DNA of 64,000 bases from Deltaproteobacteria bacterium (GTDB taxonomy: Bacteria > Desulfobacterota > GWC2-55-46), in assembly GCA_016219015.1 (NCBI GenBank), contig JACRCL010000029.1, positions 1 through 64,000 on the forward strand, in the 5' to 3' direction. The position numbers were made by a program, and so were the translations under genes. A model generated the notes under the pieces. That model ran no database searches. It saw nothing but the letters and a program-made list of their open reading frames with translations, and was not told where the DNA came from. Of this stretch, positions 10,081 to 11,449 are shown piece by piece. How positions within the stretch are numbered: the stretch's first letter is position 1; every line of letters begins with the position of its first letter.

Positions 10081-10196
10081 TTGAACACGCATAGCGAGCG
10101 CATTCCCCGCTGCTTGCAGCGGGGTTTAGCGAGCGAATCGGAATCGAAATTTTCCTTATGTGTCGAAGATTCCCCGCTGCTGCGGGGAGATTCAAC
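10081..10196. repeat. Dispersed palindromic repeat family B, copy 2
   Basis: The best-preserved copy: 116 bases, starting TTGAACACGCATAGCGAG and ending GGGGAGATTCAAC. Internal pairs CCCCGCTGC/GCAGCGGGG and CCCCGC/GCGGGG give it extensive self-complementarity. It lies between rpoD and the cytochrome promoter. Confidence 0.85.
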
Positions 10197-10272
10197 TATC
10201 GGATTTTAAAGCATTTTTCTTAAATAGTAAGTTTCAATTGCCCTTCTGGATTAAAATAAGCTAAATTCTTTC

Positions 10273-10300
10273 TTGACTTATTTTAATCCTGAAGTATAAT
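10273..10300 (+). promoter_or_regulatory. Sigma-70 promoter of the cytochrome transcript
   Basis: TTGACT at 10273-10278 and a perfect TATAAT at 10295-10300, separated by 16 bases. Transcription would start near 10307, giving a leader of about 135 bases before the cytochrome start codon. Confidence 0.85.
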
Positions 10301-10306
10301 GACAAC

Positions 10307-10402
10307 AATATTACAAGGCCTCTGGCTCAAGACGGGCTACGGAGGCCGGGCGATGGATGCCAACGGTACAACGCGTTCGTTGTATTGCTGGCGTTTTTTT
10401 TT
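10307..10402 (+). promoter_or_regulatory. Structured leader ending in an intrinsic terminator (candidate attenuator or riboswitch)
   Basis: Between the promoter and the cytochrome gene the transcript can form GGCCTCT/GGAGGCC (outer stem around 10317-10347) and then a terminator hairpin GCCAACGGTACAACG (10359-10373) with CGTTGTATTGCTGGC (10378-10392): 15 positions with two wobbles and one mismatch, followed by G and nine T. A terminator inside the leader of a gene normally means regulated read-through. I looked for the GEMM (cyclic-dinucleotide) aptamer, common before deltaproteobacterial cytochromes, but its 5' half is absent, so no known class is assigned. Confidence 0.7.
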
Positions 10403-10441
10403 GGCAGTAATAAAAAATAGTTTTATTACAGTGAGGTTCCG

Positions 10442-11449
10442 ATGAAAAAAATTATTGTCGGGCTCGTTGCCGCAGCATCCGTCGCGCTGTTAGCCGCAGG
10501 CCCCGCCATGGCCGCAAGCATAAGCAGCTATCCCGCTGGCGCTGTCGCCGGGGGCATAGTAGGCTCGAGGCACAACATGGGCTCCCTGGGCCGGGTCGTG
10601 ACGACCAACAATACTTCCGAGATATGCGTATTCTGCCATACCCCGCACTTTACCAACACTGCTAACGACTTAAAGCCGATGTGGAACAGGGGCACCGCGG
10701 CGCCCACGTCCTTCACCGCGTACGGCACGACGATAGGCGGGACGACCATAGTCAATACAGACATCGGCTCCACGACGCTCGCCTGCCTCAGCTGCCACGA
10801 CGGCGTGACTTCATTCGACAACATCGTGAACGCGCCCGGCAAGGACGGCATCACCTCCGGCGGCTCGAACTACGGCTGGAGGTTCAAGATGCCCGTAGGC
10901 GGCCTTCTCGGCACCACGGTAGACCATTTTGATTCAAGCAGCAGCGGCCCCTGCTACACCTGCCACGTGACATTCTACGGCGATACCTCGAACCCGGCTG
11001 CGAGGCTCACCATCGGGCTCGACCTCTCAAACGACCACCCGGTATCAGTGCCCTACAACGGCGCCGCGAGCCCCACGGACTTTACAGGGTCGAGGGCGTC
11101 CTTAAGGCCGACAAATACGACGATAGCCAGCGTAGACCTGACCACCAACCTGGCGGCCAACGCGCCGACGGTCTTCGGCGGCAACCTCGCGCAGAACCGC
11201 TGGGCCGTAAAGGGTGTCGTCTCCGACTCGGCGACGATCTCCGACCTTCTCAGGAACGGCAGGGTCGAGTGCACGTCGTGCCACGACCCCCACTTCAGGA
11301 ACCTGAGCTGGGACGAGGCTGAGCCCACATGGACCAACGGCATCATGACCTACTGCGCCACGGGAGAAGACTGCACGGACGGCAACTTCCTGAGGAGGGT
11401 AGGCGGCAACACCGGTTCAGGGGTCTGCAGGACCTGCCACGCGAAGTAA
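10442..11449 (+). CDS. Exported multihaem c-type cytochrome (five CXXCH)
   Basis: A 335-residue periplasmic or outer-surface electron carrier. Residues 1-25 are a Sec signal peptide (KKIIVGLVAAASVALLAAG, then AMA-A). Five haem attachment motifs are visible: CVFCH, CLSCH, CYTCH, CTSCH and, at the very C-terminus, CRTCH. The HNMGSLG and NDHPVS segments probably supply distal His ligands as in doubled-CXXCH cytochromes. An extra pair of Cys in YCATGEDC could form a disulfide. No partner oxidase, porin or maturation gene lies nearby. The gene has its own promoter, a leader with a terminator, a short palindrome just before the ribosome-binding site (GTAATAAAA/TTTTATTAC) and a perfect terminator after it, so it looks like an individually regulated single-gene unit. 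The redox partner is unknown. Confidence 0.92.
   Translation: MKKIIVGLVAAASVALLAAGPAMAASISSYPAGAVAGGIVGSRHNMGSLGRVVTTNNTSEICVFCHTPHFTNTANDLKPMWNRGTAAPTSFTAYGTTIGGTTIVNTDIGSTTLACLSCHDGVTSFDNIVNAPGKDGITSGGSNYGWRFKMPVGGLLGTTVDHFDSSSSGPCYTCHVTFYGDTSNPAARLTIGLDLSNDHPVSVPYNGAASPTDFTGSRASLRPTNTTIASVDLTTNLAANAPTVFGGNLAQNRWAVKGVVSDSATISDLLRNGRVECTSCHDPHFRNLSWDEAEPTWTNGIMTYCATGEDCTDGNFLRRVGGNTGSGVCRTCHAK

Follow-up and report, generated by a model that had tools for sequence, protein, structure and literature searches.

The leader in front of a pentahaem cytochrome gene in the window, the stretch of 64,000 nucleotides analysed here, is a member of a conserved RNA family built around two small stem-loops, the second of which competes with an intrinsic terminator. 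Based on its layout and on the genes found beside its relatives, we consider it likely that this leader is an antiterminator of the ANTAR type, a reading in which ANTAR binding, the identity of the binding protein and the signal that it answers are all predicted. If so, multihaem cytochromes of an uncultured lineage, and in relatives also a diguanylate cyclase, would be governed by an RNA switch with an altered loop code, and ANTAR-type control would reach beyond nitrogen metabolism into respiration.

Promoter, leader and terminator

The gene under the control of the leader (10442-11449, plus strand, as are all features of the locus given here) encodes an exported cytochrome of 335 aa with five CxxCH motifs, which matches the Pfam families Paired_CXXCH_1 and Cytochrome_C7; a gene for a primary-type sigma factor lies upstream on the same strand. 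The preliminary description of this DNA had proposed a near-consensus promoter, a leader of about 135 bases containing a GGCCTCT/GGAGGCC stem, and a terminator ending some 40 bases before the cytochrome start, and all three were recovered. A promoter scan placed a sigma-70-type promoter (TTGACT-16-TATAAT) at 10273-10300 that agrees with the consensus at 11 of 12 positions, one such promoter being found where 0.5 was expected from shuffles. The leader of 135 nt has a folding z of -3.6, and folding and alignment both support an outer stem, P1 (10317-10347), in which GGCCTC at 10317-10322 pairs with GAGGCC at 10342-10347. Hairpin H1 (10324-10338, GGCTC-AAGAC-GGGCT, loop type A-N-G-R-N) lies inside P1, and hairpin H2 (10349-10361, GGC-GATGGAT-GCC, loop type N-A-N-G-R-(N)-U) lies 3' of H1. 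By folding, the intrinsic terminator extends over 10356-10402, with a stem formed by 10356-10373 and 10378-10395 and a T-run at 10394-10402; it ends 39 nt before the cytochrome ATG at 10442, and GTGAGG at 10431-10436 is the probable ribosome-binding site. A simple terminator scan of the window did not pick up the terminator of the leader (0 found), apparently owing to a mismatch in its stem.

The GCC at 10359-10361 belongs both to H2 and to the 5' arm of the terminator, and the two structures are therefore mutually exclusive. For the window leader, H2 alone has a computed energy of -2.2 kcal/mol, and its enforced formation costs 7.5 kcal/mol (median 6.1 over 56 leaders), which makes the terminator the default fold and implies that a trans-acting factor is needed to hold H2.

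A conserved family of leaders

Genes orthologous or paralogous to the cytochrome gene were gathered from related genomes, their upstream regions were read, and the leaders were aligned by hand. We then seeded a covariance model (R1) from four other genomes, leaving the window genome out, built a structure-guided alignment (A5), and made a core-only covariance model (R3) for a wider search. The window leader scored 36.4 bits with R1 (genome-wide E 1.6e-4), and the model also brought up two more copies in the window genome, at G000:C27:104210 and at G000:C3:195937, each located shortly before a paralogous cytochrome gene. These copies emerge only with the covariance model, BLAST of the leader against its own genome having found no second copy by sequence. 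Most genomes of the uncultured 'Deltaproteobacteria' family to which the window genome belongs have the same layout in front of cytochromes orthologous or paralogous to that of the window, and in a search of 30 genomes of the family R3 gave matches in 27, at least one of which, in G010, looks like chance. In a search of the phylum (395 genomes), the matches read outside the class had no terminator and lay mostly within reading frames, so the leader family looks confined to the class. With tens of leaders and a working covariance model, it is a candidate for an Rfam proposal.

Two-sided change was seen at all six pairs of P1 in the cytochrome leaders, where 90.8% of cells were paired compared with 77.4% in shuffles. 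H1 and H2 occur as tandem stem-loops in 56 distinct leaders (99.3% of cells paired, 95.8% in shuffles), and the lower pairs of H1 covary across leaders (GC, AU, UA, GU). The invariant parts of these 56 leaders are CUC-ANGRN-GGG in H1, with its C-G closing pair, and GGC-NANGR(N)U-GCC in H2, which is followed by a T-run in the collected leaders. The preliminary description had held that cytochrome homologues without any conserved structure upstream would speak against its interpretation; the collection of homologous leaders and the covariation test that it proposed have instead revealed a structure shared among them. A strong terminator can stop transcription without any sensor, and the leader might thus be a constitutive attenuator with fixed read-through and no regulator, but the invariant loops and the terminator-exclusive hairpin persist from genus to genus and in front of target genes that are unrelated, and we regard this explanation as highly improbable.

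Several variations on the layout were observed. Two leaders can stand in tandem before one cytochrome gene (L065 / G000:C3:195937-196059 on the minus strand; L052, 1732-1908), the first leader having its own terminator. In the variant leaders L048, L051, L053, and L055 (approximately 1870-1970), which precede paralogous cytochromes, a ACTGAAGGCGGT core lies in a longer stem and is followed by GGCGNTGATCGCC and a terminator, and the closing pair of H1 is swapped. In some leaders the loop type recurs in additional hairpins at variable spacing, and others are without the outer stem. A row of five paralogous cytochromes of the same family occupies G018:C53:25339-30431.

Resemblance to ANTAR targets

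Known ANTAR targets consist of two small hairpins, the second overlapping a terminator, that are bound through their loops (PMC3369931; PMC8934654) and separated by a linker of about 2-25 nt (PMC8164766). The leader has the same layout and short linker as the dual-hairpin antiterminators of EutV (Enterococcus eut), NasR (Klebsiella nasF), and AmiR (Pseudomonas amiE): the tandem small stem-loops are found in the 56 leaders, the linker between H1 and H2 is 10 nt in the window and short in all aligned leaders, and the second hairpin excludes the terminator through the GCC at 10359-10361. The EutV site, AGC-AANGRR-GCUY (PMC3369931), has A-N-G-R in common with the loops described here, and its second hairpin likewise overlaps an intrinsic terminator. 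The canonical ANTAR-target loop is, however, a hexaloop with A1 and G4 (PMC3369931), whereas H1 has a pentaloop (A1, G3) and H2 a loop of 6-7 nt (A2, G4); a handful of H2 loops, AATGAT among them, do fit the A1/G4 pattern. The leader is for this reason not classed as a proven ANTAR target, though it appears to work like one. It also differs from the known targets in the covarying outer stem that encloses H1 in cytochrome leaders, a stem for which the ANTAR model offers no function and which perhaps does no more than steady H1, and in the genes controlled: nitrogen or ethanolamine genes in the known cases, and here multihaem cytochromes together with a cyclase and a PilZ protein.

ANTAR-domain proteins are encoded in the genome, as expected of such a system, and in relatives they lie beside the target genes. 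Among the ORFs of the window genome are two for REC-ANTAR proteins, one at L191 1356-1973 on the plus strand and the other at L192 216-827 on the minus strand; one of the two proteins aligns with EutV from end to end (E 6.7e-39). With reference to the EutV structure solved with RNA (6WW6) and the roles assigned to its residues (PMC8934654), this protein keeps Arg168, Met172, and Arg175, while Asn173 is replaced by Asp and Arg177 by Ser. REC-ANTAR proteins also occur in class members in which no leader was detected. Their presence was considered as a predictor of the leader and rejected as non-discriminating, both types being found across the class.

The strongest pointer to an ANTAR factor is positional: two related genera have small ANTAR genes beside the cytochromes. 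Each of the 13 small ANTAR-only genes listed for the relatives has a cytochrome of the same family as that of the window no more than about 1 kb away, a proximity that would be very unlikely by random placement, with the genomes being related and the independent events therefore fewer than 13. At several of these cytochromes (G016:C13, G007:C7, G006, G027:C23, and G024:C108) leaders were found independently with R3. The leaders of cytochromes beside small ANTAR genes have additional hairpins with this type of loop, which fits a portable protein site better than a single aptamer.

No small ANTAR was found in the window genome. Those beside cytochromes in genera g6 and g7 (L183, L184, L186, L187, L188, L189, and L190) carry a CxxxC motif at the N-terminus, seen in all seven proteins whose N-termini were read, and, unlike the known ANTAR regulators, they would act without a receiver domain. 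The small CxxxC-ANTAR proteins are possibly redox- or metal-sensing antiterminators, and they would then represent a new antiterminator type, possibly one that reads redox state.

Under the ANTAR model, RNA polymerase starting from the promoter at 10273-10300 would make H1 and then H2. By default the terminator would win the shared GCC over H2, and transcription would halt before the cytochrome. Once activated, an ANTAR protein would bind the ANGR loops of H1 and H2, hold H2, and block the terminator, turning the cytochrome on. In the window genome this protein would be a REC-ANTAR response regulator activated by phosphorylation, and in related genera the small CxxxC-ANTAR proteins may also act.

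The departure of the loops from the published ANTAR rule (PMC3369931), and the fact that the presence of REC-ANTAR proteins does not track the leader, would suit an antiterminator site for an RNA-binding protein other than ANTAR. We think this unlikely, as ANTAR genes are linked to the cytochromes and no other RNA-binding protein is. CsrA in particular is a poor candidate and was rejected: purine-rich hairpin loops in a 5' leader recall the CsrA/RsmA binding hairpins, but the GGA triplet is not conserved here (3/56 H1 loops and 16/56 H2 loops), and the overlap is with the terminator, not with the ribosome-binding site.

Cyclase targets and the riboswitch alternative

Most leaders stand before cytochromes of the same family as that of the window. 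A second target class in relatives is formed by proteins of about 520-545 aa with the Pfam domains PocR, GAF, and GGDEF, whose leaders retain both hairpins as well as the terminator and mostly lack P1. These cyclases have a canonical active site (R-Y/F-GGEEF) and the ordinary aspartate (GHxxGD) at the position that discriminates Hypr cyclases, so that c-di-GMP would be their expected product. No orthologue of the PocR-GAF-GGDEF cyclase was seen in the window genome. One leader-like dual hairpin with a terminator precedes a PilZ-domain protein (L334, G004:C63).

Cyclase and PilZ targets would suit a c-di-GMP sensor, and to that extent count against the ANTAR reading. The leader would then be a novel riboswitch with a small-molecule ligand, of which c-di-GMP or some other cyclic dinucleotide is the most plausible; the loops of two near-symmetric ANGR hairpins would hold the ligand and so stabilise H2, controlling multihaem cytochromes and, in relatives, a cyclase subject to feedback. 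In Geobacter, riboswitches for cyclic dinucleotides are known to control cytochromes (PMC6456294), and leaders in tandem are a feature of some riboswitches. However, only the small loops and the pairs that close them are conserved; the cyclase leaders mostly lack the outer stem, linker length is free, and some leaders contain extra single hairpins of the same type; and the neighbours of the cytochromes are ANTAR genes, not genes of a ligand pathway. Rfam gives no match, and on balance we judge a riboswitch to be improbable. As for the preliminary description of an attenuator or riboswitch-like leader, a regulated attenuator is upheld by the conserved covarying structure, the terminator-exclusive hairpin, and the dozens of leaders. 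A compact sensor, which it had also suggested, is not the best reading of a core made of small, repeated ANGR hairpins, with ANTAR genes adjoining the cytochromes in related genera.

The Rfam scan that had been proposed returned no match at the gathering score for the whole window, the leader included, and only unrelated matches to the leader up to E 10. The model of the c-di-GMP-I (GEMM) riboswitch, RF01051, matched neither the window nor the leader, nor any of 20 leader loci. A c-di-GMP-I search of the genome itself was also empty, but the control genomes were equally silent, so that this result says little about whether the genome lacks such an RNA. The leader resembles the c-di-GMP-I/GEMM-I elements of Geobacter in preceding cytochromes in organisms filed as Deltaproteobacteria and in its link to cyclic-dinucleotide enzymes; it differs from them in having no GEMM sequence or fold by Rfam and in a two-hairpin core that is far smaller and modular. 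A pseudoknot between the H1 and H2 loops was sought by eye and was unsupported. Neither c-di-GMP-III/IV riboswitches nor an RNA motif linked to cytochromes turned up as the subject of a paper in the open-licence literature searched.

Repeats around the promoter

A sigma-70-type promoter is present in 35 of the 42 cytochrome leaders of the family. In the window, a perfect inverted repeat of 13 bp (GGATTAAAATAAG / CTTATTTTAATCC, 10249-10290) flanks and overlaps the -35 box. The repeat is probably the operator of a DNA-binding regulator, which would then also act on the cytochrome promoter. The pattern TTGA-N5-10-TTAA occurs in or around the promoter spacer in 29/42 cytochrome leaders, with ATTAA repeats further up, and in only one of 13 cyclase leaders. 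TTAAT within the spacer is likewise shared by most of the family's cytochrome leaders, but not by the cyclase leaders. The window also contains two similar hairpin-type repeats, CCCCGCTGC...GCAGCGGGG / CCCCGCTGCTGCGGGG, at 10100-10195, in the interval that separates the sigma-factor gene from the cytochrome promoter.
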